Of a stretch of 64,000 nucleotides of DNA, positions 7,418-22,011 are shown one piece after another; position 1 is the first letter of the stretch; the number at the start of each line of letters is the position of its first letter. The translations under genes and the position numbers were made by a program. The notes under the pieces were generated by a model that saw only the letters and a program-made list of their open reading frames with translations, was not told the DNA's origin and made no database searches. Location of the stretch: positions 434,001-498,000 of the forward strand of contig NZ_SGWV01000008.1 in the NCBI RefSeq assembly GCF_004216565.1. The letters are read 5' to 3'. This DNA is from Sphaerotilus mobilis (GTDB lineage Bacteria; Pseudomonadota; Gammaproteobacteria; Burkholderiales; Burkholderiaceae_C).

Positions 7418-7933
7418 ATGCCCGCGCTGGTCGTGATGGGCGTGTCCGGCTGCGGCAAGTCCAGCCTCGGCGAGGCGGTGGCCCGGGAACTGGGCTGGAC
7501 CCTGATCGAGGGCGACGACTTTCACCCGCCGGCCAACAAGACCAAGATGGCGACCGGCCAGCCCTTGGTCGATGCCGACCGGATCGGCTGGCTCGACCGC
7601 CTTGGCCGCGAGGTGCAGGCCCATCCGGACGGCGCCGTGCTGACCTGCTCGGCGCTCAAGCGCAGCTACCGCGAGCGCCTGCGCGCGGCCGCACCGGGTC
7701 TGCGCTTCGCCTTCCTGGACCTGGACATCGCCACGGCCCAGGCGCGGGTCTCCGGCCGCAACGCCCACTTCTTCTCGCCCACGCTGGTCAGCAGCCAGTT
7801 CGAGGCGCTGGAGCCCCCGAGCGGCGAACCCGGCGTGTTGACGCTGGACGCCACCTTGCCGCTGCACACGCTGGTCGCGGCCGCCGCCACCCACGCCCTG
7901 CACGGCCCGACCGCCACGAAGGAAGCGACATGA
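7418..7933 (+). CDS. gntK: Gluconokinase
   Basis: A cytoplasmic gluconate kinase of 171 residues that makes 6-phosphogluconate for the Entner-Doudoroff or pentose phosphate route. The P-loop is VMGVSGCGKSSLG (residues 6-18), followed by the family block EGDDFHPPANKTKMATGQPLVDADRIGWLDRL and by VLTCSALKRSYRERLR, all diagnostic of GntK. It opens the operon and overlaps the small TRAP permease gene by 4 nt (ATGA), so uptake and phosphorylation are coupled. A likely operator for the divergent LacI repressor lies just upstream. Length matches the family. Confidence 0.95.
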   Translation: MPALVVMGVSGCGKSSLGEAVARELGWTLIEGDDFHPPANKTKMATGQPLVDADRIGWLDRLGREVQAHPDGAVLTCSALKRSYRERLRAAAPGLRFAFLDLDIATAQARVSGRNAHFFSPTLVSSQFEALEPPSGEPGVLTLDATLPLHTLVAAAATHALHGPTATKEAT

Positions 7934-8436
7934 GCCCGTCGACGCCCACCCGTGTCTCGCGCTTCCAGCGCATCACCCAGCTGCTGATGGCGACCTGCCT
8001 GGGCGTCATGGCGCTGGCCGTGTTCGTCAACGTCGTGCTGCGCTACGGCTTTGGCAGCGGCATCGCGGCCAGCGAGGAGCTGTCGCGCCTGCTGTTCGTC
8101 TGGATGGTCTTCATCGGCGCGACCGCCGCTTACCCGGCGGGCGAGCACATGGCCTTCACCAGCCTGGTGGGCCTGCTCAAGCACCGCCGCGTGCCGATGC
8201 TGGCGATGAGCGCGCTGATCCGCCTGCTGGTCATCCTGGCGTGCGCGCTGATGGGCTGGGGCGCCTGGCAGCAGGTCATCGTCGGGCTGAACAGCCACTC
8301 GGTGGTGCTCGGCTACCCAACCGCGCTGCTGCCCTTGCCGGCCTTCCTGTGTGCGGTTGCGATCGGCCTGACGGCCTGCGTCGAGCTGCTGCGCATGCAA
8401 CCCCTGGATCTCGGCCACAGCGCCGAGGTGGAGTGA
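7930..8436 (+). CDS. TRAP transporter small permease (DctQ type), probable gluconate uptake
   Basis: The small membrane subunit of a TRAP transporter, 168 residues with four predicted membrane segments (about 18-37, 55-75, 93-115 and 132-152). The family block RYGFGSGIAASEELSRLLFVWMVFIGAT is present. It joins the receptor-loaded large permease and probably serves assembly and coupling. It overlaps gntK by 4 nt and stops 2 nt before the dctM start. The gluconate assignment rests only on the neighbours gntK and the LacI repressor. Confidence 0.9.
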   Translation: MSPSTPTRVSRFQRITQLLMATCLGVMALAVFVNVVLRYGFGSGIAASEELSRLLFVWMVFIGATAAYPAGEHMAFTSLVGLLKHRRVPMLAMSALIRLLVILACALMGWGAWQQVIVGLNSHSVVLGYPTALLPLPAFLCAVAIGLTACVELLRMQPLDLGHSAEVE

Positions 8437-8438
8437 CC

Positions 8439-9743
8439 ATGATGTTCGGCATGACGCCCGAGGCCAGCGCCTTCGTCGTTTTCTCGCTGGGGATGCTGGT
8501 GCTGATGGGCATCGGCATGAACATGGCCTTTGCCCTGCTGCTGACCGGTGCCGGCATGGCCTGGGTGCTGGACTTCTGGGACACCCAGCTGCTGGCCCAG
8601 AACATGGTGGCCGGCGTCGACAGCTTCCCGCTGCTGGCGGTGCCCTTCTTCATCCTGGCCGGCGAGCTGATGAACTCGGGCGGCATCAGCCGCCGGATCA
8701 TCGCGATGTCGCAGGCCTGGGTCGGCCACATCCGCGGCGGCCTGGGCTACGTCGCGATCGGCGCGGCCGTGCTGATGGCCAGCATGAGCGGCTCGGCCCT
8801 GGCCGACACCGCCGCGCTGGCGACCATCCTGCTGCCGATGATGAAGCAGCACGGCTACCCGATGCACACCTCCGCCGGGCTGCTGGCCTCGGGCGGGATC
8901 ATCGCGCCCATCATCCCGCCGAGCATGCCGTTCGTGATCTACGGCGTGACGACCAACACCTCGATCTCGGCGCTGTTCGTCTCGGGCATCGTGCCCGGCC
9001 TGATCATGGGTGCCGGCCTGATCGTGGCCTGGCGCCTGGTGCTGCGCGACATGGACCTGGCCGGCTCGGCGCCCGTGCCGATGGTCGAGCGACTGCGCAA
9101 GACGGCGCAGGCCTTCTGGGCCCTGCTGATGCCCATCATCATCATCGGCGGCATGAAGTCGGGCGTCTTCACGCCGACCGAGGCCGCCGTGGTGGCCGCC
9201 TTCTATGCGCTGGTGATCGCCCTGTTCGTGCACCGCGAGATGACGCCCGGCGAGATCGGTGGCGTGCTGGTGCGGGCCGCCCGGACCACGTCCATCGTGA
9301 TGTTCCTGTGCGCCGGGGCAGCCGTGGCCAGCTACATGATCACGCTGGCCGACCTGCCTGCGACGCTGAGCGGCTGGCTCGGTCCGCTGGTCGAGAGCCC
9401 GCGTCTGCTGATGGCGGTGATGATGGTCGTGCTGGTGCTGATCGGCACCGCGCTGGACCTGACCCCGACCATCCTGATCTTCGCGCCGGTGATGCTGCCG
9501 ATCGCGGTCAAGGCCGGCATCGACCCGGTGTACTTCGGCCTGATGTTCGTGCTCAACAGCGCGATCGGCCTGATCACCCCGCCGGTCGGCACGGTGCTCA
9601 ACGTCGTCGCCAGCGTCGGCCGGCTGTCGCTGCACCAGGTCATCAAGGGCGTGAACCCCTTCTTGCTGACCTACACGCTGATCCTGGCGCTGTTCGTCGT
9701 CTTCCCGCAGATCGTGACCGCGCCGGTCGCGTGGCTGCGCTGA
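8439..9743 (+). CDS. TRAP transporter large permease (DctM type), probable gluconate uptake
   Basis: The channel subunit of the TRAP transporter, 434 residues with about twelve membrane segments, driven by a sodium or proton gradient. Family landmarks are LLAVPFFILAGELMNSGGISRRI, ASMSGSALADTAALATILLP, GGIIAPIIPPSMPFVIYG, FTPTEAAVVAAFYAL and GLITPPVGTVLNVV. The start follows the dctQ stop by 2 nt and has GGTGGAG as ribosome binding site inside the end of dctQ; a second ATG follows at once. It is part of the gntK-dctQMP unit. Confidence 0.93.
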   Translation: MMFGMTPEASAFVVFSLGMLVLMGIGMNMAFALLLTGAGMAWVLDFWDTQLLAQNMVAGVDSFPLLAVPFFILAGELMNSGGISRRIIAMSQAWVGHIRGGLGYVAIGAAVLMASMSGSALADTAALATILLPMMKQHGYPMHTSAGLLASGGIIAPIIPPSMPFVIYGVTTNTSISALFVSGIVPGLIMGAGLIVAWRLVLRDMDLAGSAPVPMVERLRKTAQAFWALLMPIIIIGGMKSGVFTPTEAAVVAAFYALVIALFVHREMTPGEIGGVLVRAARTTSIVMFLCAGAAVASYMITLADLPATLSGWLGPLVESPRLLMAVMMVVLVLIGTALDLTPTILIFAPVMLPIAVKAGIDPVYFGLMFVLNSAIGLITPPVGTVLNVVASVGRLSLHQVIKGVNPFLLTYTLILALFVVFPQIVTAPVAWLR

Positions 9744-9760
9744 TCGGTGGATGGGTGGCC

Positions 9761-9790
9761 CCTGCCTGCCCCTGCCTGCCCCTGCCTGCC
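9761..9790. repeat. Tandem repeat, 10-bp unit x3
   Basis: Three identical copies of CCTGCCTGCC fill part of the 104-bp gap between dctM and dctP. The gap also holds the ribosome binding site of dctP. The array could slow the polymerase or adjust relative expression, but nothing shows this. Confidence 0.8.
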
Positions 9791-9847
9791 CCTCCCCGAA
9801 CCTCCACTTTCCCTTCCCCAACCGTCCCACTGAAAACGGAGACAACC

Positions 9848-10867
9848 ATGTCCATGCTTCGCCGCACCCTGCTCGCCACCGCCGCTGTCGCCGCGCTGGC
9901 CGCGCCCTTCGCCAGCCTGGCGCAGGACTTCAAGCCGCGCCTGATCCGCTTCGGCTACGGCCTGAACGAGCAGTCCAACCAGGGCCGTGCGGTCAAGGTC
10001 TTTGCCGAGGCGGTCGAGAAGGCCAGCGGCGGCAAGATGAAGGTGCGTGCCATCGGCGCGGCCGCGCTCGGCCCTGACACGCAGATGCAGCAGGCGCTGA
10101 TCGGCGGTGCCCAGGAAATGATGGTCGGCTCGACCGCCACGCTGGTGGGCATCAGCAAGGAAATGGCGCTGTGGGACACGCCCTTCCTGTTCAACAACGC
10201 CAAGGAAGCGGACGCGGTGCTGGACGGCCCGATCGGCCAGAAGGTGATGGACAAGCTGCAGGACAAGGGCCTGGTCGGCCTGGCCTATTGGGAGAACGGC
10301 TTCCGCAACCTGACCAACACCAAGCGCCCTGTGACGAAGCTGGAAGACCTGGACGGCATCAAGCTGCGCGTGATGCAGAACAACGTCTACCTCGACAGCT
10401 TCAAGCTGCTGGGCGCCAACGCCGTGCCGCTGCCCTTCTCGGAGCTGTTCAGCGCGCTCGAGACCAAGACGGTCGACGGCCAGGAGAACCCGTACAACAC
10501 GATCCTGTCGAGCAAGTTCTACGAGGTGCAGAAGTACCTGTCGGTGACCAACCACGTCTACAGCCCGTGGATCGTCACGGTCAGCAAGAAGTGGTGGGAC
10601 GGCCTGAGCAAGGACGAGCAGAAGGTGCTGCTCGACGCCGCCCGCAGCGCCCGTGACTTCGAGCGCAAGGACACCCGCGACGAAGCCGCCAAGGCGCTGG
10701 CCGAGCTGAAGGCCAAGGGCATGCAGATCAACGAACTGCCGGCGACCGAATCGGCCCGCATGCGCGAGAAGCTCGCCAGCGTGAACACCGCCATCGCCGC
10801 CAACGTGGGTGCCGAGCTGTGGAGCGAGACCCAGGCAGCGCTGGGCAAGCTGCGCGGCGGGAAGTGA
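9848..10867 (+). CDS. TRAP transporter substrate-binding protein (DctP type), probable gluconate receptor
   Basis: The periplasmic receptor of the TRAP system, 339 residues. A signal peptide (MSMLRRTLLATAAVAALAAP, cleaved near residue 26 at LAQD) precedes the mature protein. The family features FGYGLNEQSNQGRAVKVFAE, KLRVMQNNVYLDSFKLLGAN (arginine that binds the ligand carboxylate) and ETKTVDGQENPYNTI are clear. The ribosome binding site GGAGACA stands 5 nt before the start. It ends the gluconate operon and is followed by a strong hairpin. A gluconate ligand is inferred from the operon. Confidence 0.93.
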   Translation: MSMLRRTLLATAAVAALAAPFASLAQDFKPRLIRFGYGLNEQSNQGRAVKVFAEAVEKASGGKMKVRAIGAAALGPDTQMQQALIGGAQEMMVGSTATLVGISKEMALWDTPFLFNNAKEADAVLDGPIGQKVMDKLQDKGLVGLAYWENGFRNLTNTKRPVTKLEDLDGIKLRVMQNNVYLDSFKLLGANAVPLPFSELFSALETKTVDGQENPYNTILSSKFYEVQKYLSVTNHVYSPWIVTVSKKWWDGLSKDEQKVLLDAARSARDFERKDTRDEAAKALAELKAKGMQINELPATESARMREKLASVNTAIAANVGAELWSETQAALGKLRGGK

Positions 10868-10913: not shown

Positions 10914-12260
10914 TCAAGCCATTTGCGCCAGCACCCGGTCGACCATCAACCCGGACTGACCCAGGTAGTTGGCCGGATCGAGCATCTGTTCGAGCCCGGC
11001 CCGGTCGACGTGCGGCGTGATTTCCGGGTGGCTGGCCAGCAGGTCCAGCAGCGGCACCCGGCGGGCGAGCGATTCGCGGCAGAGGTCGTAGACCAGGTCG
11101 TGCGCATGTTCGCGACCGATGTGGTGGCCCAGGCCCATCATGACCGCCTCGCTCATCACCAGACCGCCGGTCAGGTCGATGTTGCGACGCATCGCGACCG
11201 GGTCGACCTCCAGGCCTTCGAGCACGGCGCGTGACTGGCGCAACGCGCCGGCGAGCAGGCAGAAGGCCTCCGGCAGCACGATCCACTCGATTTCCCACGG
11301 GCCCGTGCTGCGCTCGTGGTCGGCCACCATCGCGTCCATCAGCGCGGCGGCATGCTGGCGCACCACGCTGATCGCGGCATGGATGTAGCAGCTGCTGATC
11401 GGGTTGCGCTTCTGCGGCATCGTGCTGCTGGAGCCGCGGCCGTGGTGATAGGGCTCGTAGACCTCGCCGACCTCGGTCTGCATCATCAGCTTGACGTCCA
11501 TGCTGAGCTTGCCCAGCGTGCCCCCGATCAGGCCCAGCACCGCACCGACCTCGGCGATGTTGTCGCGGATGGTGTGCCAGGCGATCACCGGCTGGCCCAG
11601 GCCCAGTTCGGCGCACAGCGCGGCCTGGGTCTCCATCGCGCCGGTCTGCAGCGAGGCCAGCGTGCCGGCGGCGCCGGCGAACTCACCCACCAGCACCCGT
11701 TCGCGCAGCTGCGCCAGTCGCTCACGGTGGCGCAGCACGGCCGACAGCAGACCGGCGATCTTGTAGCCGAAGGTCACGGGAATGGCCTGCTGCAGATTGC
11801 TGCGGCCGATCATCGGCGTGAGGCGGTGTTCGCGGGCCAGTTGGGCCATGGCCTGGGCGATCGCGGCCAGTTCGTCGTCGACCAGCTGCAAGGCCTGGCG
11901 GATCTGCAGCACCGTCGCGGTGTCGGTGATGTCCTGGGTGGTCGCGCCCCAGTGCACGTACTCGCCCAGGCCGTCGCGGCAGAGCTGGTTGATCTGCGTG
12001 ACCACGCCCAGGATGGGGTAGCCGATGCGCTCGGTCTGCTCGCGCAGCCGGGCCATGTCGATCTGGCCGATCTCGCAGTGGCTGACGATCTCGTCGGCCG
12101 CCTCTTGCGGGATCAGGCCAAGCCGGCCCTGCACGATCGCCAGTGCGCGCTCGACGGCAACGTACTGCGCGGTGCGGTTCTCGTCGGACCAGACCTGGCG
12201 CATGGCCTCGGTGCCGAAGATGCCCTGGAAGATCTGCGAGTCAATGATGCTGGCGGCCAT
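10914..12260 (-). CDS. Fumarase/aspartase superfamily lyase, candidate trans-aconitate decarboxylase
   Basis: A 448-residue enzyme of the superfamily holding fumarase, adenylosuccinate lyase and 3-carboxy-cis,cis-muconate cycloisomerase. The catalytic loop signature reads GSSSTMPQKRNPIS (around residue 275), and the other two conserved blocks are visible as HWGATTQDITDT and GRSNLQQAIPVTFGYK. The start at 12260 has GAGGAGG 6-7 nt upstream. Automatic annotation would call it adenylosuccinate lyase or PcaB, but no purine or protocatechuate genes are near. It is the last gene of an operon with a PrpF isomerase, CoA-transferase, MaoC hydratase and CitE lyase. In Ustilago the PrpF-family Adi1 and this superfamily's Tad1 turn cis-aconitate into itaconate via trans-aconitate, so I infer a trans-aconitate decarboxylase. 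An N-substituted aspartate lyase remains possible. Confidence 0.8.
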   Translation of the reverse strand: MAASIIDSQIFQGIFGTEAMRQVWSDENRTAQYVAVERALAIVQGRLGLIPQEAADEIVSHCEIGQIDMARLREQTERIGYPILGVVTQINQLCRDGLGEYVHWGATTQDITDTATVLQIRQALQLVDDELAAIAQAMAQLAREHRLTPMIGRSNLQQAIPVTFGYKIAGLLSAVLRHRERLAQLRERVLVGEFAGAAGTLASLQTGAMETQAALCAELGLGQPVIAWHTIRDNIAEVGAVLGLIGGTLGKLSMDVKLMMQTEVGEVYEPYHHGRGSSSTMPQKRNPISSCYIHAAISVVRQHAAALMDAMVADHERSTGPWEIEWIVLPEAFCLLAGALRQSRAVLEGLEVDPVAMRRNIDLTGGLVMSEAVMMGLGHHIGREHAHDLVYDLCRESLARRVPLLDLLASHPEITPHVDRAGLEQMLDPANYLGQSGLMVDRVLAQMA

Positions 12261-12366
12261 GGGGTTTCCTCCTCGTGGGGTGTTGCTTGTGTGATGTGAA
12301 TGGATGCGAATGGAAGCGGGTGGGATGCGTTCGGCGTGGATGGACGCGGCACGTCTCGGGCAAGCA

Positions 12367-13218
12367 TCAGCCCGGCGCACGGGCGAGCAGGCGGCGGGCA
12401 CGTTCGATCACCGGTCGGTCGACCATGCGGCCGTCAAGTTGCACGACCCCGGCCTGGTCGCCAGCCTCGGCGATGGCTTGCAGCACGCGCCGCGCCCAGG
12501 CCAGCGTGGCGGCATCGGGCGTCAACGCGGCATGCACGGCCGCAATCTGGCGCGGGTGGATGCACAGCTTGGCGCCGTAGCCGTGCGCACGCTGGCGGGC
12601 CAGGTCGCGCTGCAGCGGGGCCTCGTCGTCGATCTGCACGGTGACCCCGGCCACCGGTGAAACCAGGCCTGCCGAGCGCGAGGCCTGCGCCAGCGTCGCG
12701 GCTGCGGCGTCCAGTGCCAGCGGCTCGGGCCAGGCGTCCAGGTCCAGATCGAGGTCGAGCGCGTAGTCGAGCGTGCCAAACACCAGCCGCTGCACGCCCG
12801 GCGCTGCCGCGATCGCGCCAGCCTGCAGCACGCCACGGGCGCTCTCGATCAAGGCCAGCACCGGCAAGGTGCCGATGCCCATGCGCAGCGCGGCGATGTC
12901 GTCGGCCGACTCTGCCTTGGGCAACATGACGCCAGCCAGCGAGATGTCCGCCTGGGCCAGCCGGGCCAGCCATGCCAGGTCCTCGGCATGGTGGGGACTG
13001 GACCGATCGTTGATGCGCACGACGCATCGCCCGGCCGCATCGCTGGCCGCTGCAAGCGTCGACAGGGCCTCGAACATCGCCTCTCGCGCCATGGCCTTGC
13101 GGGTCGGCGCCACCGCGTCTTCGAGATCCAGCACGACCGCGTCGGCGCCGCTGGCCAAGGCCTTGGCCAGGCGCTCGGGACGGTCGCCCGGCACGAACAG
13201 GTAGCTGCGCGGCGACAT
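12367..13218 (-). CDS. CitE-like (S)-citramalyl-CoA / malyl-CoA lyase
   Basis: A HpcH/HpaI-CitE family lyase of 283 residues that splits a hydroxyacyl-CoA into acetyl-CoA and a 2-oxoacid. The family start MSPRSYLFVPGDRPERLAKAL is followed by AVVLDLEDAV (metal-binding acidic region), VRINDR (CoA-binding arginine), VMLPKAESADDI, LIESARGV (metal-binding Glu), FGTLDYALDL and GAKLCIHPRQI. Translation starts 2 nt after the CoA-transferase stop, so the two are coupled. With the hydratase and CoA-transferase beside it, it matches Ccl, the last step of itaconate breakdown, giving acetyl-CoA and pyruvate. Beta-methylmalyl-CoA or malyl-CoA lyase activity is an alternative. Confidence 0.85.
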   Translation of the reverse strand: MSPRSYLFVPGDRPERLAKALASGADAVVLDLEDAVAPTRKAMAREAMFEALSTLAAASDAAGRCVVRINDRSSPHHAEDLAWLARLAQADISLAGVMLPKAESADDIAALRMGIGTLPVLALIESARGVLQAGAIAAAPGVQRLVFGTLDYALDLDLDLDAWPEPLALDAAAATLAQASRSAGLVSPVAGVTVQIDDEAPLQRDLARQRAHGYGAKLCIHPRQIAAVHAALTPDAATLAWARRVLQAIAEAGDQAGVVQLDGRMVDRPVIERARRLLARAPG

Positions 13219-13220
13219 GC

Positions 13221-14405
13221 TCAGATCGCTCCGTCGGCGCGCAGGGCGGCGATGTCGGCGGGGTTCAGGCCCAGCGCGCCCAACACGGCGTCGGTGTGTT
13301 GACCCAGCGCGGGGACCGGGTCCATGCGTGGTCCTTCGCCATCGTTCCAGCTGCCCGGTGGCAAGAGCGCCGGCACCGGTCCGGCGGGGGTGTCGACCTC
13401 GCGCCAGCGATCCCGGGCGCGCAGCTGCGGGTGGTCCCAGACCTCGGCCATGGTGTTGACACGGGCGTTGGCGATCTGCGCGGCCTCGATGCGTTCGAGC
13501 ACCTGGGCCGTGCTCAGGGCCGCAAAGACCTCGACGATCAACGCACGCAGGGCGACCCGTTCGGCGCTGCGCTTCGGGTTGGCGTCGAAGCGGGGATCGC
13601 GTGCCAGGTCCGGCATCTGCAGCACGACCGCGCAGAAGGCGGCCCATTCACGTTCGTTCTGCAGACCCAGCATGACGGTGCCGCCATCGCCCGCCGGGAA
13701 GGGTCCGTAGGGGTAGATGGTGGCGTGGCTGGCACCGGTGCGGGCCGGTGGCGCTGCGCCGTCGAAGGCGTAGTACAGCGGGTAGCTGGTCCATTCGGTC
13801 AGCGCCTCCAGCATCGACAGGTCGATGTGGGCGCCCTGCCCTGTGCGCCCCCGCTGCAGCAGCGCGGCCAGGATCTGGCTGTGGGCGTACATGCCCGCCG
13901 CGATGTCGGCGATCGACGGCCCGGCCTTGCAGGGCTCGTCGGCCGTGCCGGTGACGGACAAGAAGCCGGCCTCGCTCTGGATCAGCAGGTCGTAGGCCTT
14001 CTTGTCGCGATAGGGGCCGTCCGAGCCGTAGCCGGAGATGTCGCAGACGATCAGCGAGGGCTTGAGCGGCTTGAGCTCGTCCCAGCCCAGGCCCAGCCGG
14101 GCAGCGGCGCCGGGGGCCAGGTTCTGGATCAGCACATCGGCCTGCTCCAGCACCAGGCGCTGCAGCAGCGCCCGGGCTGCTGGGTGCTTGACGTCGAGCG
14201 TCACACTTTCCTTGGAGCGGTTGGTCCAGACGAAGTGCGACGCCAGGCCGCGCACCCGCGTGTCATAGCCCCGGGCGAAGTCGCCCACGCCGGGTCGTTC
14301 GATCTTGATGACCCGTGCGCCCAGGTCGGCGAGCTGGCGGCTCGCAAATGGCGCGGCAATCGCGTGTTCGAGCGTGACGACGGTGATGCCTTGCAAAGGT
14401 TGCAT
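13221..14405 (-). CDS. Class III (CaiB/BaiF) CoA-transferase, probably itaconate or mesaconate
   Basis: A family III CoA-transferase of 394 residues that moves CoA from a donor such as succinyl-CoA to a carboxylic acid through an aspartyl intermediate. The N terminus MQPLQGITVVTLEHAIAAPF and the block RSKESVTLDVKHPAARAL are typical. The catalytic aspartate lies in KKAYDLLIQSEAGFLSVTG (near residue 155). It resembles succinyl-CoA:mesaconate and itaconate CoA-transferases more than formyl-CoA transferase in its short linker, but this is judged by eye. A 98-bp gap with short GAGACGGGCT repeats separates it from the hydratase gene upstream. In context it activates the C5 diacid. Confidence 0.88.
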   Translation of the reverse strand: MQPLQGITVVTLEHAIAAPFASRQLADLGARVIKIERPGVGDFARGYDTRVRGLASHFVWTNRSKESVTLDVKHPAARALLQRLVLEQADVLIQNLAPGAAARLGLGWDELKPLKPSLIVCDISGYGSDGPYRDKKAYDLLIQSEAGFLSVTGTADEPCKAGPSIADIAAGMYAHSQILAALLQRGRTGQGAHIDLSMLEALTEWTSYPLYYAFDGAAPPARTGASHATIYPYGPFPAGDGGTVMLGLQNEREWAAFCAVVLQMPDLARDPRFDANPKRSAERVALRALIVEVFAALSTAQVLERIEAAQIANARVNTMAEVWDHPQLRARDRWREVDTPAGPVPALLPPGSWNDGEGPRMDPVPALGQHTDAVLGALGLNPADIAALRADGAI

Positions 14406-14440
14406 GTCGGTGGGTTCCGGCGGTGGGTGACGGGCAGGCG

Positions 14441-14470
14441 TTAGCGGGCTGAGACGGGCTGAGACGGGCT
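14441..14470. repeat. Tandem repeat, 10-bp unit x3
   Basis: Three consecutive 10-mers ending CGGGCT (TTAGCGGGCT, GAGACGGGCT, GAGACGGGCT) lie between the hydratase and CoA-transferase genes of the proposed aconitate/itaconate operon, followed by a more diverged copy. Confidence 0.65.
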
Positions 14471-14502
14471 GCTGCAGGCTGCGACGGGCGTTCCGGTCCG
14501 GA

Positions 14503-15351
14503 TCAGCGCAACGTGGCCACGGCGTCCATCGTCAGCCAGCCCTCGTGATCGCTGGCCCACAGCCGCACGCTGCGACCGTCGGCGTCGGGCTGGCCATGCA
14601 CGGCCATCGGCCTGCCATCGAAGGTCGGGCGGACCGCCTTGAAGCGGAAGCTGGCCACGTCGGCCTCAGGCCACTCGCGGCGCAGCAGGTCCATCAGCAA
14701 GGTGGCGATCAGCGGGCCGTGCACGATCAGTCCGGGGTAGCCCTCGACCTCGGTGACATAGCGCCGGTCGTAGTGGATGCGGTGGCCGTTGAAGGTCAGC
14801 GCCGAATAGCGGAACAGCAGCACGTCGTCGGGCAGCAGCTCGCGCCGCCAGGCTGCCCCGGTCGGCGCGGGCTGCGGTGGCGGCTCGATGTCGTCGGGCC
14901 GGCGCGCCTCGCGGTAGACGATGTCGTGATGCTCGACCAGCGCCGGCTCGGTCGCGTCGGCGGTGTACAGCTCGTGGCGCACCTTCACGAAGACCAGCGC
15001 GCCGGTGCGACCGTCCTTGCGGCTCACGTTCTCGATGGTCGAGCGGCGTTCGACCGCGTCACCGACCCGCAGCGCTCGGCGGAAATCGAACTGGCTGCCG
15101 GCCCACATGCGGCGCGGCAGCGGCACCGGCGGCAGGAAGCCGCCGCGACGGGCGTGGCCGTCCGGCCCGATCTCGCTCTGGCGGTGCATCGGCAGGAAGT
15201 AGAGCCAGTGCCACAGCGGTGGCAGGGGCGATCCGGCGGCATCGGGCGCCTCGGCATGGTCAAGCGTGGCGCTCAACGCCCGAACGGGAGCGGCGGTGAA
15301 GGTGTCGTGCAGCGTCTCGCTGCGGCCGATCCAGGTGCTGAGATCCTGCAT
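14503..15351 (-). CDS. MaoC/hot-dog acyl-CoA hydratase, probably itaconyl- or mesaconyl-CoA hydratase
   Basis: A double hot-dog hydratase of 282 residues of the FAS1-like dehydratase group. The N-terminal part has PPLWHWLYFLPMHRQSEIGPDGH, a block I associate with mesaconyl-C4-CoA hydratase and itaconyl-CoA hydratase. The second domain carries the catalytic hydratase motif as LFRYSALTFNGHRIHYDRRYV followed by GLIVHGPLIATLLMDLL. I chose the ATG before QDLSTW because GGAG lies 9 nt upstream; another ATG three codons earlier has no room for a ribosome binding site. In the proposed pathway it hydrates itaconyl-CoA to citramalyl-CoA for the CitE lyase. Confidence 0.87.
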   Translation of the reverse strand: MQDLSTWIGRSETLHDTFTAAPVRALSATLDHAEAPDAAGSPLPPLWHWLYFLPMHRQSEIGPDGHARRGGFLPPVPLPRRMWAGSQFDFRRALRVGDAVERRSTIENVSRKDGRTGALVFVKVRHELYTADATEPALVEHHDIVYREARRPDDIEPPPQPAPTGAAWRRELLPDDVLLFRYSALTFNGHRIHYDRRYVTEVEGYPGLIVHGPLIATLLMDLLRREWPEADVASFRFKAVRPTFDGRPMAVHGQPDADGRSVRLWASDHEGWLTMDAVATLR

Positions 15352-15388
15352 GGGAGTCATCTCCGGGGTGGTCGCGTGACGGGTGTCG

Positions 15389-16351
15389 TCATTCGGCCGA
15401 CAGCTTGGCACGCTGAACCACGGCCTTCCACTTGGTCAGCTCGGTCTTGACCATGTTGCCCAGTTCGGCCGGCGTGCTGGTCTCGACGTCGGCGCCGTGG
15501 TCCTCGATGCGCTTGACGATGTCCTTGTCCGTCAGGACCTGGTTGAGCGCCTTGTTGAGCTGATCGATCACCGCCTTGGGCGTCTTGGCCGGCGCGAACA
15601 CGCCGTACCACTGCTGCACCTCGACGCCCTCGACGCCAGCCTCCCGCAGGGTCGGCACATCCGGCAGCAGGGCCGCGCGTTTCGGGCCTGCGACGGCCAG
15701 CGCGCGCAGCTTGCCGGACTTGACGTGCGGATAGGCGGTGAACAGGCTGGGGAACATGAACTGCGTTTGTCCGCCGATGGTGTCGGTCACCGCAGGGGCG
15801 GAGCCCTTGTAGGGAATGCCGGTCATCTCGACCCCGGCCGCCAGCTTGAACAGCTCGGCGGCGTAGTGAGGCGCCGTGCCATTGCCGGCCGAGGCATAGG
15901 TGTAGGCATCGGGCTTGGCCTTGAGTTGGCTGACCAGCTCGCGCACGTCCTTCACCGGGGTCTTGGCGTGCGCCACCATCAGCGTGGCCGAGTAGCCCAC
16001 CAGGCCGACCGGCTCGAAGTCGGCCACCGGGTCGTAGCGCAGCTTCTGCAGCGCCGGGTTCATCGCGTGGGTGGCGATGTAGCCGAACATCAGCGTGTGG
16101 CCGTCGGCCGGCGCACGGGCGACGTATTCGCTGGCGATCGAGCCGTTGGCGCCGGCCCGGTTGTCGATCACGATGGTCTGGCCCAGCAGCGGCCCGAGCT
16201 TCTGGGCAATGGTGCGGGCCATGGCGTCATTGCCGCCACCGGCAGCGGTGGGCACCACCAGCGTGATGGTCTTGTCGGGCCAGGCCAGGGCGGCAGGGGC
16301 GGATGCGGCCAGCACAGCGGCGGCGAGCACAGGGGCGATCAACGGCTTCAT
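15389..16351 (-). CDS. Bug/TctC-family periplasmic receptor, joined in frame to prpF
   Basis: A periplasmic tricarboxylate-type receptor of 320 residues with its own signal peptide (MKPLIAPVLAAAVLAASAPA, cleaved near ALAWPDK) and the usual DKTITLVVPTAAGGGNDAMARTIAQKL start. GAAGGAGA lies 6 nt before the ATG, so it can be translated by itself. In the sequence as given, however, the upstream prpF frame has no stop and runs straight into this protein. A single C fewer in the preceding run of six would give PrpF a TGA overlapping this ATG (ATGA), the normal operon arrangement. Within the aconitate/itaconate cluster its ligand is probably a tri- or dicarboxylate such as trans-aconitate or itaconate, which is inference. 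Confidence 0.9.
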   Translation of the reverse strand: MKPLIAPVLAAAVLAASAPAALAWPDKTITLVVPTAAGGGNDAMARTIAQKLGPLLGQTIVIDNRAGANGSIASEYVARAPADGHTLMFGYIATHAMNPALQKLRYDPVADFEPVGLVGYSATLMVAHAKTPVKDVRELVSQLKAKPDAYTYASAGNGTAPHYAAELFKLAAGVEMTGIPYKGSAPAVTDTIGGQTQFMFPSLFTAYPHVKSGKLRALAVAGPKRAALLPDVPTLREAGVEGVEVQQWYGVFAPAKTPKAVIDQLNKALNQVLTDKDIVKRIEDHGADVETSTPAELGNMVKTELTKWKAVVQRAKLSAE

Positions 16352-17452
16352 CGGTTTGTCTCCTTCGGGGGGCTTCGAGAACACGTAGGCAGGGATGTGC
16401 AGGTCGCCCTGCAGGATCTTGCGGGCCGTGCGGACCAGCGCGGCTCGGGTGATGCGCGCATCGGCGCCGTGGCCGTCGATGACGACCTCGACCTCGATGC
16501 GGCCTTGTGGGTGCAGCACGGCGATGCGGCGCGGGCCATCGGTGACAGCGGGTTGGCTGGCCACCGTGCCCGGCAGGGCGAACGCGGTCGCCACGCCGAT
16601 CGCACCGGTCACCGCATGCGAGGCGTGACAGCGGCGCGGCGTGAAGTAGCGCGAGGTCACGCTGTCGGCGTCTTCGCCCGGACTGACCAGCACCGGCTTG
16701 GGGATGACGCTGGTGGACACGTCGCCCAGGCCCATGCGCTCGCCAGCAATGCGGCGCAGCGACTCGATGCGTTCGAGCAGCGCGCGGTTGGCATCGATCT
16801 CGGCCGGCGCCTCGCGTCCGGCCAGGCCGAGATCACGGGCGCGGACGATCATCAGCGGCATGGCCGCATCGATGCAGCTGACCTCCACGCCGTCGATGAC
16901 GTCGATGCGCTGGCCGGTCGGGAAGATCGAGCCGGTGACGGAACCCCAGGCATCGAGGAAGTTCAGCCGGATCGGCGCGGCGGTGCCCGCCACGCCGTCG
17001 ATGGCGGTCAGCCCGTCGTAGGTGATGCGCCGGCCCGGCGTCATCACGGTCACGTCGATGCGTGCGCGGGTGTTGACGTTGTAGACCCGCACGGTGGTCT
17101 CGCCGTCGTCGGCGTCGATCAGGCCCTGCTCGATCGCAAAGGGCACGACACCCGAAAGCATGTTGCCGCAGTTGGGCCGCGTGTCGACCGAGGTCTGGCC
17201 GACGCCGACCTGGGCGAAGAGGTAATCCAGCTGGCAGTCCGGCTGGCTCGAACGCGACACGATCGCGACCTTGCTGGTCAGCGTGCTGCCGCCGCCCACG
17301 CCGTCGACCTGCAGCAGATCGGATGCGCCGATCGCGCCGATCAGCGCCTCGTCACGCGCCGCCTCGTCGGCCGGCAACCATTCCCGCAAGAAAAACGGAC
17401 CGCGCGAGGTGCCGGCTCGCATCAGGACGCAGGGGACGGTGAGGGATTGCAT
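16352..17452 (-). CDS. PrpF-family isomerase, candidate aconitate isomerase
   Basis: A PrpF/DUF453 family protein, about 367 residues up to the next gene's start. This fold catalyses proton shifts on unsaturated carboxylic acids: cis-trans aconitate isomerisation, methylitaconate delta-isomerisation and 4-oxalomesaconate tautomerisation are known. The N terminus PCVLMRAGTSRGPFFLREWLP and the block DTRPNCGNMLSGVVPFAIEQGL (catalytic cysteine) are diagnostic, with RRCHASHAVTGAIGVA near the C terminus. It is first in the operon and faces a LysR gene. As given, it lacks a stop codon and fuses with the Bug receptor; a run of six G on the plus strand at 16367-16372 is the likely site of an indel. 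Its proposed role is to make trans-aconitate or to move the double bond to reach itaconate. Confidence 0.85.
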
Positions 17453-17543: not shown

Positions 17544-18455
17544 ATGGCCATCAACTTCGACCTCAATGACCTGATGGCCTTTCGCGCCGTTGCCGAACTG
17601 GCCAACTTTCGCAAGGCGGCGGAGTCGGTCCACCTCTCGCAGCCCGCCTTCAGCCGGCGCATCGACAAGCTCGAACAGGCGCTGGGCGTGCGGCTGCTCG
17701 AACGCACCACGCGCCGGGTCACGCTGACCACCGTCGGCCGCGAGTTCGAACGCCAGGTGCGCGCGCTGCTCGACGACCTCGACGTGACGCTGCTGAGCAT
17801 CCGCGGTGTGGCGGCCACGCGCATGGGCGAGGTCACCGTCGCCTGCGTGCCGTCGACGGTCAACTACTACCTCTCGCAGGTCATCCTGCGCTACCGCGAG
17901 ACCCATCCCAAGGTGCGGGTCAGGGTCCTCGATGCCGGAGCCAACGAGGCGCTGGACGCGGTCTCGCGCGGGGCCGCCGACTTCGGACTGAACTTCATCG
18001 GCGCACAGGAAGGCGACCTCGAGTTCCGCGCCCTGGTGGAGGAACGCTTCGTGGCCGCCTGCCGGCGCGACCATCCGATCGCGGCGATGAAGCGGGTCAG
18101 CTGGAGCCAGCTGGGCGAACACGACGTCATCGCCGTCAACCGCAGCTCGGGCAACCGGCTGTTGCTGGACCAGGCGCTGGCGGGCGTGGCCCGGGCGCCG
18201 CAGGCCATTTACGAGACCCAGCACGTCACCACGCTGCTGGGTCTGGTCGAGGCCGGCCTCGGCGTGGCGGCTGTGCCGTCCATGGCGATGCCGGGGCGCG
18301 ACCACCCACTGCTGGTCAGCGTGCCGCTGGTCGATCCGGTGGTGACCCGCAAGGTCGGCCTGATCCGCAAACGTGGCCGCACGCTGTCGCCGGCCGCGCA
18401 ACACCTTTACGACCTGTTGGTCGGGGTGCGGGCCCGCAAAACCCGGTCGGGCTGA
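17544..18455 (+). CDS. LysR-family regulator of the aconitate/itaconate-type operon
   Basis: A LysR-type regulator of 303 residues. The DNA-binding domain is NDLMAFRAVAELANFRKAAESVHLSQPAFSRRIDKLEQALGVRLLER (residues 8-54), followed by the effector domain starting near GEVTVACVPSTVNYYLSQVI. It diverges from the prpF-led operon with only 91 bp between starts and a good LysR-type inverted repeat within it. I infer that it activates that operon in response to the pathway substrate and represses itself. The C terminus is short and basic. Confidence 0.92.
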   Translation: MAINFDLNDLMAFRAVAELANFRKAAESVHLSQPAFSRRIDKLEQALGVRLLERTTRRVTLTTVGREFERQVRALLDDLDVTLLSIRGVAATRMGEVTVACVPSTVNYYLSQVILRYRETHPKVRVRVLDAGANEALDAVSRGAADFGLNFIGAQEGDLEFRALVEERFVAACRRDHPIAAMKRVSWSQLGEHDVIAVNRSSGNRLLLDQALAGVARAPQAIYETQHVTTLLGLVEAGLGVAAVPSMAMPGRDHPLLVSVPLVDPVVTRKVGLIRKRGRTLSPAAQHLYDLLVGVRARKTRSG

Positions 18456-18625: not shown

Positions 18626-19654
18626 TTGGGGCGTAACCTGCTGCGACGCCGTCTGAGCGTCTGTTTGGCACTCTCGCCGCTGCTGCCGGCGGGTGCCGGT
18701 GTGGCCGCTGTGCAGGCCGGTGAACGCAAGCGGCATCTGGTCGTGATCCCGAAGGCCAGCGACCAGTTGTTCTGGGATCTGGTCCGCAGCGGCGTCGAGC
18801 AGGCGGTGGCCGAGGCCGGGCGGGCCGGCCGCGATGTCGGGCTGACCTGGCGCGGGCCGGCCTACAGCGGCGATGCGCTGGCGCAGATCCGCATCCTGCA
18901 GTCCTACATCCGGCCCGATGTCGACGCGATCGTGCTGGCCGCCAACGACCGCACGCGGCTGCTCGAACCGGTGCAGGCCGCCGTCGCCGCCGGCATTCCC
19001 GTGATCATCCTGGACTCGGCGCTGGACGGCGACGCGCACAGCGCCCTGGTGGCCACCGACAACCTCGCCGCCGGGCGACAAGCGGCCCGGGAAATGGCAC
19101 GTCGGCTCGGTGGCAAGGGCGATGTGTTGGTGCTGCGCACGCTGGCCGGCAGTGCCTCCACCTTCGACCGCGGCCGAGGCTTCGTCGAGGAACTGGGCCG
19201 CATCGCGCCCACCGTGCGCGTGGTGGCCGATGTCTTTGGCGGCGGCGCACCCGGGGACCTGCGGGCCCGGGCCGGCGAACTGCTGCGCAACCATCCGGAC
19301 GTCGACGGCATCTTCAGCGTCAACGAGTCGTCGACCGACGGCATGCTGCGCGCGCTGCGCAGCGTCGCCCGGCCTCGGCGGCACATCTTCATCGGTTTCG
19401 ATGCAACGCCCTTTCTGCTCGACGCGGTGGGCTCGGGCGAGATCGACGCCCTGGTGATCCAGGACCCGCGCCACATGGGCCTGCTGGGTGCACGGCTGGC
19501 GATCAGCCTGATGAGCGATGTCCGGCCCGCACCCGCATCGGCTCCGTTGCCACCGGGCATGGCCAACAAGAAGTTCACCATCGAGACCCGGCTGGTGACG
19601 CGCGAGAACATGGCCCAGCCCGACATCCGTCAGCTCATGTGCCTGACATGCTGA
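18626..19654 (+). CDS. Periplasmic sugar-binding-like sensor protein
   Basis: A periplasmic binding protein of the ribose/galactose (type 1) fold, about 342 residues from the TTG at 18626. I preferred this start because RNLLRRRLSVCLALSPLLPA directly forms a signal peptide and AGGGACGG lies 5-10 nt upstream; a GTG at 18557 adds 23 polar residues. The mature part has KASDQLFWDLVRSGVEQAVAEAG, YIRPDVDAIVLAANDRTRL, VATDNLAAGRQAAREMARRL and DGIFSVNESSTDGMLRAL, the usual ligand-cleft strands. No ABC permease genes follow. Instead the gene overlaps a membrane GGDEF-EAL gene by 16 nt, so it probably signals a sugar or autoinducer to that protein rather than feeding a transporter. Confidence 0.85.
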   Translation: MGRNLLRRRLSVCLALSPLLPAGAGVAAVQAGERKRHLVVIPKASDQLFWDLVRSGVEQAVAEAGRAGRDVGLTWRGPAYSGDALAQIRILQSYIRPDVDAIVLAANDRTRLLEPVQAAVAAGIPVIILDSALDGDAHSALVATDNLAAGRQAAREMARRLGGKGDVLVLRTLAGSASTFDRGRGFVEELGRIAPTVRVVADVFGGGAPGDLRARAGELLRNHPDVDGIFSVNESSTDGMLRALRSVARPRRHIFIGFDATPFLLDAVGSGEIDALVIQDPRHMGLLGARLAISLMSDVRPAPASAPLPPGMANKKFTIETRLVTRENMAQPDIRQLMCLTC

Positions 19655-22011
19655 AGCGGCTCCAGCGACTGCGGGACCTGCAGGGGCGACTGGCCCGTCG
19701 TGGTCTCACCATCGGCATCGTGCTGGGCATCCTCGTTGGCCTGCTGGTGCCGGCCGGCATCGGTGGCTGGATGCTGTCGCGACTGCGCACCCAGCAGGTT
19801 GCCGTCGATGCGGCCAGCCAGCTCGACGAACGGGCCGCGCTGCTGGCGTCTGCGCTGGCCGTGCCGGCCTGGAACTTTGACCGCAATGGCCTGGACCGGA
19901 TCGCCTCGGCGGCCATGCTCGACGACCGCGTGATCCGCATCGAGGTCCGCGACGCGCAGTGGCTGCCCTTGCTGGAGCTGACGCGTCAACCGGGCGATCA
20001 GGTGCTCAGGCTCGCCACCGCACGGCGCGAGCTGCGCTTCAACGCCAAGACCGATCCGGCGGGCCATTCCGGCGAACTCGCAGGCTGGGTCGAACTGACG
20101 GTGAACACCGCCGCCGCGCAGCAGCAGGTTCAGAACGAGCTGCGCTCGCTGGGGCTGGTGCTGCTGATGCAGCTGGGGCTGTCGACGCTGTTGCTGCTGT
20201 GGACCTTCCGGGCCCGCGTGCTGCAGCCGCTGTCGGCCCTGACCCGTTTCTCGGACCAGCTGGCCAGCGGCAACCTCGAACGGGCCCTGCCCTGGCAGCG
20301 ATCGGACGAGATCGGCCAGCTCGCCAGCCAGATGGAGCGCATGCGCAGCGACCTGAGGGACTTGTTCGCGCAGCAGCGCGCGATCCTGGACAACGTCGAC
20401 GTTGGCATCGTGTTCGAGCAGGACGGCGTCGTGCGCCTGGCCAATCCGCAGGCCGATCAGGTCTTCGGTCGACCGCGCGGTGGCCTGATCGGCTTGCAGC
20501 TGCGCGAGCTGTTGCCCGATCTTCCGGACACCCGCGAGGCCGAGATCGAGCTGCGGCTTCCGGACGGACACCCGTTCTGGGCCCATCTGCGGGTCTGCCG
20601 GCTGGATCAGCAGTCAGCCGGTGCCGGCAGCATCTGGGTGATCGAGGACATCTCCGAGCGCAAGGCCACCGAGCGCGAGATCCACCAGCTGGCCTACTAC
20701 GACCCGCTGACGCGCCTGCCCAACCGCCGCCTGTTGCTCGATCGGCTGCGCGATGCCCTGGCCACCGCCACGGCCGATGGCCGGCATGGCGCCTTGCTGT
20801 TCATCGACCTGGACAACTTCAAGAACCTCAACGACACGCTGGGCCATGAGGTCGGCGACCGCCTGCTGCGCCAGGTGGCCGGCCGGCTCAGTGCCTGCCT
20901 GCGTCGCGAGGACACGGTGGCCCGTTTCGGTGGCGACGAGTTCGCGGTCGTGCTGGACCCGATCGCCCGTAGCGCCGCCGATGCGGTGGCGATGGCCCAG
21001 GTCGTCGGCGACAAGATGATGGCCGCGCTGGGTCAGCCCTACCCGCTTGGCGACGTCGTGCGCACCAGCACGCCCAGCATCGGCGTGGTGCCGTTTGGGT
21101 CGACCTCGGACACGGTCGATGGCCTGCTGCGCAAGGCCGATCTGGCGATGTACAACGCCAAGGCAGCCGGGCGCAACGCGCTGCGCTTCTTTGACGCCCC
21201 GATGCAGGCCGCGCTGATCGACCGCTCGACGCTCGAAGATGACCTGCGCCGCGCGATCGACCTCGGCCAGCTTTCCTTGCACTACCAGCCTCAGGTGGTC
21301 GACCACGACGCACAGGGCACCCGGATCACCGGCGCGGAAGCGCTGCTGCGCTGGCAGCATCCGCAGCGCGGCTGGGTCTCGCCGGCCACCTTCATCCCGC
21401 TGGCAGAACAGTCCGGCCTGATCCTGTCGCTCGGCGCCTGGGTGCTGCGCACCGCCTGCGCCCAGCTGGCGCGCTGGTCGCGTGATCCGGCCACGGCCGA
21501 ACTGGACCTGTCGGTCAACGTCAGCGCGATCCAGTTCCGCCGGCCCGATTTCGCCAGCGGCGTGCTCGACGAACTGGCACGCAGCGGCGCGAAACCGAAA
21601 CGCCTGAAGCTCGAGCTGACCGAGAGCGTGCTGGTCGACGACTTCGACGACATCGTGCCGAAGATGGTGGCGCTGCGCTCGGCGGGCGTGCGCTTCTCGC
21701 TCGACGACTTCGGCACCGGTTATTCGTCCTTGGCCTACCTCAAGCGCCTGCCGCTGGACCAGCTCAAGATCGACCGCCTCTTTGTCGACCACCTGCTCAA
21801 GGACGACGACGATGCCGCCATCGCCCGCACCATCATCGCGCTGGCCGACAGCCTGGGCCTGGGCGTGCTGGCCGAGGGCGTCGAACAGGAGTCGCAGCGC
21901 GTGCGTCTGGCCGACATGGGTTGTCGGGCCTACCAGGGCTACCTGTTCAGCCGGCCCTTGCCCTTGCCGGCATTCATGAATTTGCTGGAGCAGACCGTGA
22001 CGAACCCCTGA
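19639..22011 (+). CDS. Membrane HAMP-PAS-GGDEF-EAL c-di-GMP protein
   Basis: A bifunctional c-di-GMP signalling protein of 790 residues. A first membrane helix (about 22-46) and a second (about 168-192) enclose a periplasmic domain of some 120 residues. HAMP follows (to about 245), then a PAS domain (RAILDNVDVGIVFEQDGVVRLANPQADQVFG), GGDEF with intact VARFGGDEFAVVL and an RxxD inhibitory site (RRED), and EAL with EALLRWQHP, VNVSAIQF, ELTES, DDFGTGYSSL, DQLKIDRLF and LAEGVEQ. Both activities look intact. The start overlaps the upstream periplasmic binding protein gene by 16 nt, which suggests co-translation and a sensor-effector pair. An ATG three codons further is a possible alternative start. 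Confidence 0.93.
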   Translation: MPDMLKRLQRLRDLQGRLARRGLTIGIVLGILVGLLVPAGIGGWMLSRLRTQQVAVDAASQLDERAALLASALAVPAWNFDRNGLDRIASAAMLDDRVIRIEVRDAQWLPLLELTRQPGDQVLRLATARRELRFNAKTDPAGHSGELAGWVELTVNTAAAQQQVQNELRSLGLVLLMQLGLSTLLLLWTFRARVLQPLSALTRFSDQLASGNLERALPWQRSDEIGQLASQMERMRSDLRDLFAQQRAILDNVDVGIVFEQDGVVRLANPQADQVFGRPRGGLIGLQLRELLPDLPDTREAEIELRLPDGHPFWAHLRVCRLDQQSAGAGSIWVIEDISERKATEREIHQLAYYDPLTRLPNRRLLLDRLRDALATATADGRHGALLFIDLDNFKNLNDTLGHEVGDRLLRQVAGRLSACLRREDTVARFGGDEFAVVLDPIARSAADAVAMAQVVGDKMMAALGQPYPLGDVVRTSTPSIGVVPFGSTSDTVDGLLRKADLAMYNAKAAGRNALRFFDAPMQAALIDRSTLEDDLRRAIDLGQLSLHYQPQVVDHDAQGTRITGAEALLRWQHPQRGWVSPATFIPLAEQSGLILSLGAWVLRTACAQLARWSRDPATAELDLSVNVSAIQFRRPDFASGVLDELARSGAKPKRLKLELTESVLVDDFDDIVPKMVALRSAGVRFSLDDFGTGYSSLAYLKRLPLDQLKIDRLFVDHLLKDDDDAAIARTIIALADSLGLGVLAEGVEQESQRVRLADMGCRAYQGYLFSRPLPLPAFMNLLEQTVTNP

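Follow-up and report, generated by a model that had tools for sequence, protein, structure and literature searches.

Which pathway is encoded by the leftward operon at positions 10914–17452 of the 64,000 nucleotide stretch of Sphaerotilus mobilis DNA analyzed here (contig NZ_SGWV01000008.1, positions 434,001 to 498,000; in the following the window)? Database labels would place its lyase in aromatic breakdown, while several of its other genes resemble those of itaconate degradation. The operon lies on the minus strand and comprises, in the order of transcription, a PrpF-family isomerase joined to a Bug solute receptor, a hydratase, a CoA-transferase, a CitE-family protein, and a lyase; the corresponding Pfam calls are PrpF, TctC (Bug), FAS1_DH_region (hydratase), CoA_transf_3, HpcH_HpaI (CitE), and Lyase_1 together with ADSL_C. 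An earlier reading made from the letters and open reading frames alone (the sequence-only reading) had described six separate genes. Its coordinates, order, strand, and protein families stand, but PrpF and Bug form one frame of 687 aa. The source genome has 4.65 Mb in 15 contigs with a completeness given as 100, and the window has a G+C content of 69%. As judged from sequence comparison, we consider it quite probable that the operon encodes a catabolic aconitate pathway which proceeds via itaconate.

The argument is carried by the lyase, which is most likely a trans-aconitate decarboxylase-like enzyme of the Tad clade. When it is compared with all solved chains, the top matches are five distinct Ustilago Tad1 sequences (519–528 bits), followed by 3c8t, an unassigned fumarate lyase (439 bits), the PcaB proteins 1re5 (362 bits) and 1q5n (327 bits), and CreD (252 bits). 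The alignment with Tad1 comprises 436 residues with zero gaps, and the identity amounts to 56% for Tad1, 48% for 3c8t, and 42% and 40% for the two PcaB proteins. A tree of 51 rows was calculated from the window lyase, 26 of the 80 named relatives described below, 20 lyases from genomes of the same order, and four solved enzymes. The window lyase, the 26 relatives, four of the order rows (69–72% identity), and Tad1 form a clade of 32 rows with support 100/100. The sequence-only reading had named PcaB and adenylosuccinate lyase as the affiliations that would speak against it; in the tree PcaB 1re5 and 1q5n fall with six order rows into a separate 100/100 clade, and adenylosuccinate lyases, which the tree does not contain, were judged by score only (at most 190 bits vs 528 for Tad1). 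A third clade (100/98) unites 3c8t with six rows. By tree path the nearest lyases are those of Rubrivivax and Ideonella (Sphaerotilaceae). In the approximately unbiased (AU) test, constrained trees that join Tad1 with the 3c8t clade (p-AU 4.5e-5) or with PcaB (p-AU 8.7e-5) fit worse, p-values that are weakened by the groups having been named after the tree was seen.

The residues of the active site point in the same direction. According to their titles, the deposited Tad1 structures include S320A (9h4h) and R360A (9h4g), the latter with trans-aconitate. Residues S320, R360, and Q326 of Tad1 correspond to S277, R317, and Q283 of the window lyase, and the equivalents of S320 and R360 are each found in 100% of the 85 bacterial Tad rows. 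At the position of S320 there is alanine in 95% of the 20 rows of the 3c8t clade and glycine in 92% of the 12 PcaB rows. R360 does not discriminate between the clades because it is universal. Considering all positions at which Tad1 matches at least 95% of the bacterial Tad rows, 26 differ from PcaB and 18 from the 3c8t clade, with S320 in both sets, when the comparison residue is fixed in at least 80% of the 12 PcaB-clade rows or of the 20 3c8t-clade rows. The AlphaFold model of the lyase has a predicted local distance difference test score (pLDDT) of 88.3, and its ten best Foldseek matches are all Tad1 chains. As a side observation, the lyases of the neighboring clade (L124–L129, L171–L183, PDB 3c8t) are 48–54% identical to the window lyase, and several lie beside a GntR-like gene (L127 was scanned).

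The remaining enzymes resemble those which degrade itaconate. The sole strong solved relatives of the hydratase are 8huc and 8khg (itaconyl-CoA hydratase, Ich) with 233 bits and 47% identity, the next match having 16 bits; the similarity to the solved Ich extends over nearly the whole length, and the stretch RYSAxTFNGHRIHYD is near-identical. The CoA-transferase belongs to class III (PF02515, 360 bits). For the CitE protein, the best solved match is 8khl (named probable acyl-CoA lyase beta chain; 47% identity), and the identity to 3qll (named citrate lyase) amounts to 35%; from the similarity to 8khl and from its context, the CitE protein probably works like the citramalyl-CoA lyase Ccl. A second match to the RipC_Ccl family model in the genome is partial and weak (47 vs 153 bits). 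The sequence-only reading had proposed that the operon joins an aconitate-to-itaconate half with an itaconate-degrading half, and this appears to be borne out by the position of the lyase in the Tad1 clade and by the 47% identity of the hydratase to 8khg and of the CitE protein to 8khl.

The lyase is also linked to these genes in other genomes. Contigs from 84,980 species were scanned with the lyase, and the best 80 of 281 relative-encoding stretches were kept, a set that leans to close relatives. With four genomes of the order and three plasmids this gives 87 loci whose lyase has 65% identity or more (neighbor matches by tblastn at E 1e-20 with identity floors; L211 is outside this count). 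A hydratase was found in 75 of these, a CoA-transferase in 69, a CitE protein in 58, all three in 52, and PrpF in 53. When only loci of 18 kb or more are counted (n=58), the respective numbers are 53, 49, 41, 39, and 41. The comparison set comprised 16 lyases from other clades, of which 13 lie in stretches of 18 kb or more; around these 16 there was no match to hydratase, CoA-transferase, or CitE, hence none to all three, and two to PrpF. The arrangement is not due to chance: only the lyase was considered when the 80 loci were selected, and in 50 of them hydratase, CoA-transferase, CitE, and lyase follow one another in this order on the same strand and span no more than 5 kb. The order-keeping loci come from Sphaerotilaceae (15), Zoogloeaceae (8), Rhodocyclaceae (4), and seven further families with one or two each, and 14 are without a family name. 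Related operons are present in Azospirillum brasilense and Variovorax sp. SRS16, and in Bradyrhizobium sp. CB82 dctA, hydratase, CoA-transferase, CitE, and lyase are consecutive, and the 31 kb of this locus contain no match to PrpF. The Tad clade is uncommon: a lyase of at least 70% identity occurs in 6 of 300 genomes of the order, the own genome included.

From the observed gene order, homology, clade, active-site residues, and linkage we infer the catalytic steps, the substrate, the transport, and the regulation as follows. A tricarboxylate would be captured by the Bug receptor, probably together with a TctA-type permease encoded elsewhere; two TctA proteins are encoded elsewhere in the genome, and the transporters differ across the loci (Bug, DctA, TRAP, TctA, MFS). 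trans-Aconitate would be decarboxylated to itaconate by the Tad-clade lyase, itaconate would be converted to itaconyl-CoA by the class III CoA-transferase and further to citramalyl-CoA by the MaoC-type hydratase, and the CitE protein would cleave the latter to acetyl-CoA and pyruvate. The LysR protein encoded divergently probably senses a compound of the pathway. The PrpF domain is probably an aconitate isomerase with the catalytic lysine and cysteine present, as its K61 and C95, which do not vary among 27 aligned fusions, match by motif K73 and C107 of SoPrpF, for which mutants are described in the accessible text of PMC5690661. It would interconvert cis- and trans-aconitate and would so allow the entry of cis-aconitate, either imported or, in other species, derived from tricarballylate; surplus trans-aconitate could leave via PrpF to the tricarboxylic acid (TCA) cycle. 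Isomerization had been proposed as the entry step, and the assignment to the PrpF family is upheld. As a required step of the core it is not, because 17 of the 58 long loci gave no PrpF match; the core thus likelier starts at trans-aconitate with PrpF as an accessory.

Known TcuAB systems use tricarballylate and feed the resulting cis-aconitate to the TCA cycle. Of the 58 long loci, 16 have homologues of TcuA and TcuB in the vicinity of the core, which suggests a combined tricarballylate pathway; three TcuA and one TcuB representative are over the NCBIfam cut-offs. In such loci TcuAB would supply cis-aconitate, which would need PrpF before the lyase can act. Overall, TcuA/TcuB genes near the core were seen in L087–L089, L092, L095–L098, L102, L103, L109–L111, L114, L035, L037, L040, L043, L073, and L120.

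Several observations weigh against the proposed pathway or parts of it. The CitE protein reaches 153 bits at an NCBIfam RipC_Ccl cut-off of 375 and was not placed in this family because the cut-off was missed; it is also the least conserved member of the operon, with 44–62% identity to the window across the relatives. That the CoA-transferase is specific for itaconate is probable from its context only. For 12 of the 87 Tad-clade loci, some of them on short contigs, a hydratase match is lacking. No CitE match was found in L040, L041, L070, and L083, and hydratase, CoA-transferase, and CitE are all absent within reach in L065, L072, L079, and L123 and also in L057 and L094 (short contigs). In the tree Tad1 is a long branch and is among those of which the program warns. 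The template modeling (TM) scores of the lyase model to PcaB are nearly equal to those for Tad1, and the fold alone is therefore not decisive. Of the long loci, 14 of the 16 with TcuAB and 27 of the 42 without contain PrpF; we call this difference neither significant nor an association. Finally, the TcuA search in the window's genome gave nothing over the cut-off (best 115 of 369 bits), and a tricarballylate input is thus inapplicable to this genome, unlike the TcuAB-bearing loci.

The database labels suggest that the lyase is the 3-carboxy-cis,cis-muconate cycloisomerase PcaB or an adenylosuccinate lyase and that the operon serves the breakdown of aromatic compounds, which we regard as extremely improbable. 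The top NCBIfam match of the lyase is indeed PRK09053 (487.7 bits, cut-off 595), and the PcaB model TIGR02426 is missed only narrowly (353.1 bits, cut-off 355.75); plasmid records at 60–80% identity to the lyase (n=7) are annotated once as pcaB, twice as adenylosuccinate lyase family, and four times carry no feature under the match. Window lyase and PrpF domain also share superfamilies and present database names with PcaB and 4-oxalomesaconate tautomerase, and the PrpF domain passes the cut-off of the latter (NF033377, 481 bits vs 440). Against this, the lyase reaches the cut-off of none of the 18 NCBIfam models listed, it belongs to another clade than PcaB as judged by the tree and the AU test, and the 26 positions conserved in the Tad clade differ in PcaB. 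The neighboring genes encode CoA enzymes, and the operon is without an aromatic-pathway partner. In addition, PcaG and PcaH would give two intradiol dioxygenase domains in a genome, whereas a single one is present here; its locus (one frame) matched no family in an NCBIfam scan, and no PcaB over the cut-off was found in the genome. We have rejected the aromatic reading on these grounds, and likewise a gallate or 4-oxalomesaconate reading, whose sole support is the tautomerase cut-off passed by the PrpF domain. Databases may hide the pathway under such annotations.

Two further explanations retain the CoA genes. The substrate of the lyase might be a different substituted succinate or tricarboxylate, with the CoA genes degrading the product; the superfamily is catalytically diverse, and the 3c8t clade is 48–54% identical to the window lyase. 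We consider this unlikely in view of the gap-free match to Tad1, the conservation of the S320 and R360 equivalents, and the linked gene similar to itaconyl-CoA hydratase, which argue for itaconate as the product. Alternatively, the operon might serve itaconate itself (or mesaconate or methylsuccinate), with lyase and PrpF in a side function such as the disposal of toxic trans-aconitate. The hydratase and the CitE protein do resemble the itaconate set, and trans-aconitate inhibits aconitase and fumarase according to the available part of PMC4720413. In a phylum sample of 398 genomes, however, hydratase homologues without a Tad lyase are frequent (78 genomes, E 1e-40), whereas in an equally large phylum sample a lyase of more than 54% identity was found in the own genome only, with 29 genomes having a match at E 1e-100. 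The lyase is the marked addition, and most loci have itaconate-type genes linked with it, so that an operon for itaconate with the lyase as a side function appears very unlikely. The trans-aconitate pathway via itaconate remains the reading that we prefer.

The proposed pathway shares parts with several known systems. Like the Ustilago maydis cluster, which has the isomerase Adi1 and Tad1, the operon combines a PrpF-family isomerase with a Tad-type lyase. The fungus, however, makes and exports itaconate, whereas the linked genes of the operon would activate and cleave it; in the available text the table of the cluster contains carriers of the MFS and mitochondrial types, and CoA genes are not among its entries (PMC4720413). 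The same source, as far as its text is accessible, reports that Tad1 turns trans-aconitate but not cis-aconitate into itaconate (Geiser et al.) and that the closest characterized homologue of Adi1 is a 4-oxalomesaconate tautomerase. With the Ict-Ich-Ccl (Rip) pathway of Pseudomonas and Yersinia the operon has in common an Ich-like hydratase, a CitE-like lyase, and a class III CoA-transferase, and a transferase of this class is used for itaconate degradation in Pseudomonas. The cluster of pseudomonads differs in that it adds methylsuccinate genes including an MmgE/PrpD isomerase inactive on aconitates; in the accessible portion of this 2025 paper trans-aconitate is mentioned as a compound on which the methylsuccinate isomerase was tested and found inactive and in the title of a cited work, and a trans-aconitate decarboxylase does not occur (PMC12290011). 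TarA/TarB/TarR of Bacillus similarly provides an aconitate isomerase of the PrpF family together with an importer and a regulator of its own, but there trans-aconitate is isomerized to cis-aconitate for central metabolism (Zheng et al. 2024; PMC11495376, available text). Itaconate or itaconic has zero occurrences in the available text of that study and likewise in that of a 2026 paper on trans-aconitate-assimilating bacteria (PMC13188880). From what is accessible of them, a review has hypothesized for purple bacteria the reverse direction from itaconate to aconitate (PMC8307300), and a paper on dicarboxylates in Pseudomonas mentions aconitate in passing only (PMC9875883). Our literature search, whose coverage excludes most subscription journals and the paper behind the 2025 Tad1 structures, gave no recognized report of a bacterial operon joining Tad and itaconate genes. 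The enzymes are thus of known kinds; the new part is their combination into a catabolic route, and the conserved PrpF-Bug gene is an extra.

This gene deserves separate consideration. Where PrpF and Bug matches of more than 60% identity are adjacent on the plus strand, they are in frame without a stop in all 29 relatives. All 33 near-complete PrpF homologues with 65% identity or more, the one of the window among them, carry a C-terminal Bug domain, and none of the 52 with lower identity does; PrpF matches that are incomplete were dropped from this count, such as L069 and L071, both fused in the set of 29, and L078 at a contig end. A local sequencing slip was ruled out, as the fusion is common to the relatives. 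When the order was searched, the four best PrpF matches (73–100% identity, own included) lay in frames of 688–753 aa, and 36 of the 38 others in frames of 366–452 aa, the two exceptions having 489 and 559 aa. The linkers vary between 23 and 77 aa where measured, and the frame is always kept. A signal-peptide-like hydrophobic segment is present in 27 of the 33 fusions, and the same 27 have GGAGAC before an in-frame ATG or GTG (L039 was judged by eye); the glycine codon GGA used in this motif accounts for 123 of 2247 glycine codons in the fusion genes. Motif and segment are missing from six fusions, L090, L190 (Variovorax sp. SRS16), L211 (Cupriavidus oxalaticus), L192, L193, and L194, and in Variovorax and C. 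oxalaticus the fusion is directly preceded by a separate Bug gene. Fused rows include L035, L049, L090, L190, L192–L194, and L211. The model of the fusion has two folded domains and a low-confidence or disordered linker (pLDDT <50 at 354–389), and no packing between the domains can be claimed because the predicted TM score (pTM) is low (0.53). Going by the translation and these motifs, the Bug domain may have been retained as a partner of the isomerase in the cytosol; where there is no adjacent separate Bug gene, it may in addition be made as a free periplasmic receptor from the internal start. The gene with its nested start would then yield two products, an isomerase-receptor that is tethered or cytosolic and a receptor free in the periplasm. 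The same literature search gave no recognized report of a PrpF-Bug fusion; part of it is of little weight, as the matches there were mostly unrelated papers on human PRPF.

Two kinds of related loci should be mentioned. L065 and L072 contain a reduced version with LysR, PrpF-Bug, and a Tad-type lyase and no hydratase, CoA-transferase, or CitE match in 21 kb. In three genomes that have the fusion and for which the search of the order gave no lyase at E 1e-100, a protein with weak matches to PrpD models (21–67 bits) is encoded within 3 kb of the fusion (L213 4612–5988, L214 6126–7607, L215 5354–6742). The PrpD family also includes cis-aconitate decarboxylase.

Features of the operon and its regulator with positions in the window
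Feature	Position	Strand	Basis
PrpF-Bug fusion frame, isomerase domain followed by Bug/TctC solute receptor	15389..17452	-	687 aa, continuous frame, PF04303 and PF03401
PrpF domain, probable aconitate isomerase	16352..17452	-	NF033377 481 bits (cut-off 440); K61 and C95 invariant
Bug domain with own ATG and signal-peptide-like segment	15389..16351	-	translation, junction
Shine-Dalgarno-like GAAGGAGAC within the fusion frame, 5' of the Bug ATG	16358..16366	-	GGAGAC and in-frame ATG/GTG in 27 fusions
MaoC-type hydratase, probable itaconyl-CoA hydratase (Ich)	14503..15351 (from ATG)	-	282 aa; solved relatives 8huc, 8khg
Class III CoA-transferase, probable itaconate CoA-transferase	13221..14405	-	394 aa; PF02515 E 1.5e-107; substrate from neighbors only
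CitE-family lyase, probable citramalyl-CoA lyase (Ccl-like working)	12367..13218	-	283 aa; PF03328
trans-Aconitate decarboxylase-like lyase (Tad clade, aspartase/fumarase superfamily)	10914..12260	-	448 aa; Tad1 best solved relative
LysR-family regulator, divergent	17544..18455	+	PF03466 and PF00126

The intergenic gaps are short, with 37 nt between the stop codon of Bug and the ATG of the hydratase and 2 nt between the stop codon of the CoA-transferase and the ATG of CitE, and a GAGGAGG motif is located just 5′ of the ATG of the lyase. Homologues of the LysR protein with 63–83% identity occur in many betaproteobacterial loci. A scan for promoters and terminators gave 0 promoter-like sites and 2 terminator-like sites (1.8 expected), both on the plus strand. 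Convergent with the operon are genes of a TRAP transporter (small permease, large permease, DctP) at 7930–10867 on the plus strand. We have set them aside as a candidate aconitate importer; they are 31–38% identical to TRAP proteins of one Thauera and one Aromatoleum locus, their nearest name is diketogulonate-type with scores under those cut-offs, and they are probably unrelated to the operon. Three nearby genes have matches to cyclic-di-GMP families (GGDEF/EAL-type), at 4249–5979 (minus strand), 19639–22011, and 22070–23224 (both plus strand).

trans-Aconitate is a leading organic acid of maize and is also found in sugarcane and sorghum, and in the literature on this compound, within the text available, bacterial use is by isomerization to cis-aconitate and the TCA cycle only (PMC11495376, PMC13188880). 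If the proposed pathway is true, there would be a second trans-aconitate route, which bypasses aconitase, an enzyme that trans-aconitate inhibits, and itaconate would be an ordinary catabolic intermediate in environmental bacteria. Bacterial trans-aconitate decarboxylases would become available for bioproduction, and a misnamed gene family would be corrected. The joint reading goes further: beta-, alpha-, and a few gammaproteobacteria would have an unrecognized route for trans-aconitate, and with TcuAB for tricarballylate, via itaconate under pcaB-type labels, the smut-fungus pair would possibly descend from such an operon, and one lineage would have a dual-product PrpF-Bug gene. Taken as a whole this is possible but somewhat doubtful. 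The itaconate-making pair of the smut fungi may have descended from such a bacterial operon, and if the pathway is true, the origin of their itaconate pathway would become testable.

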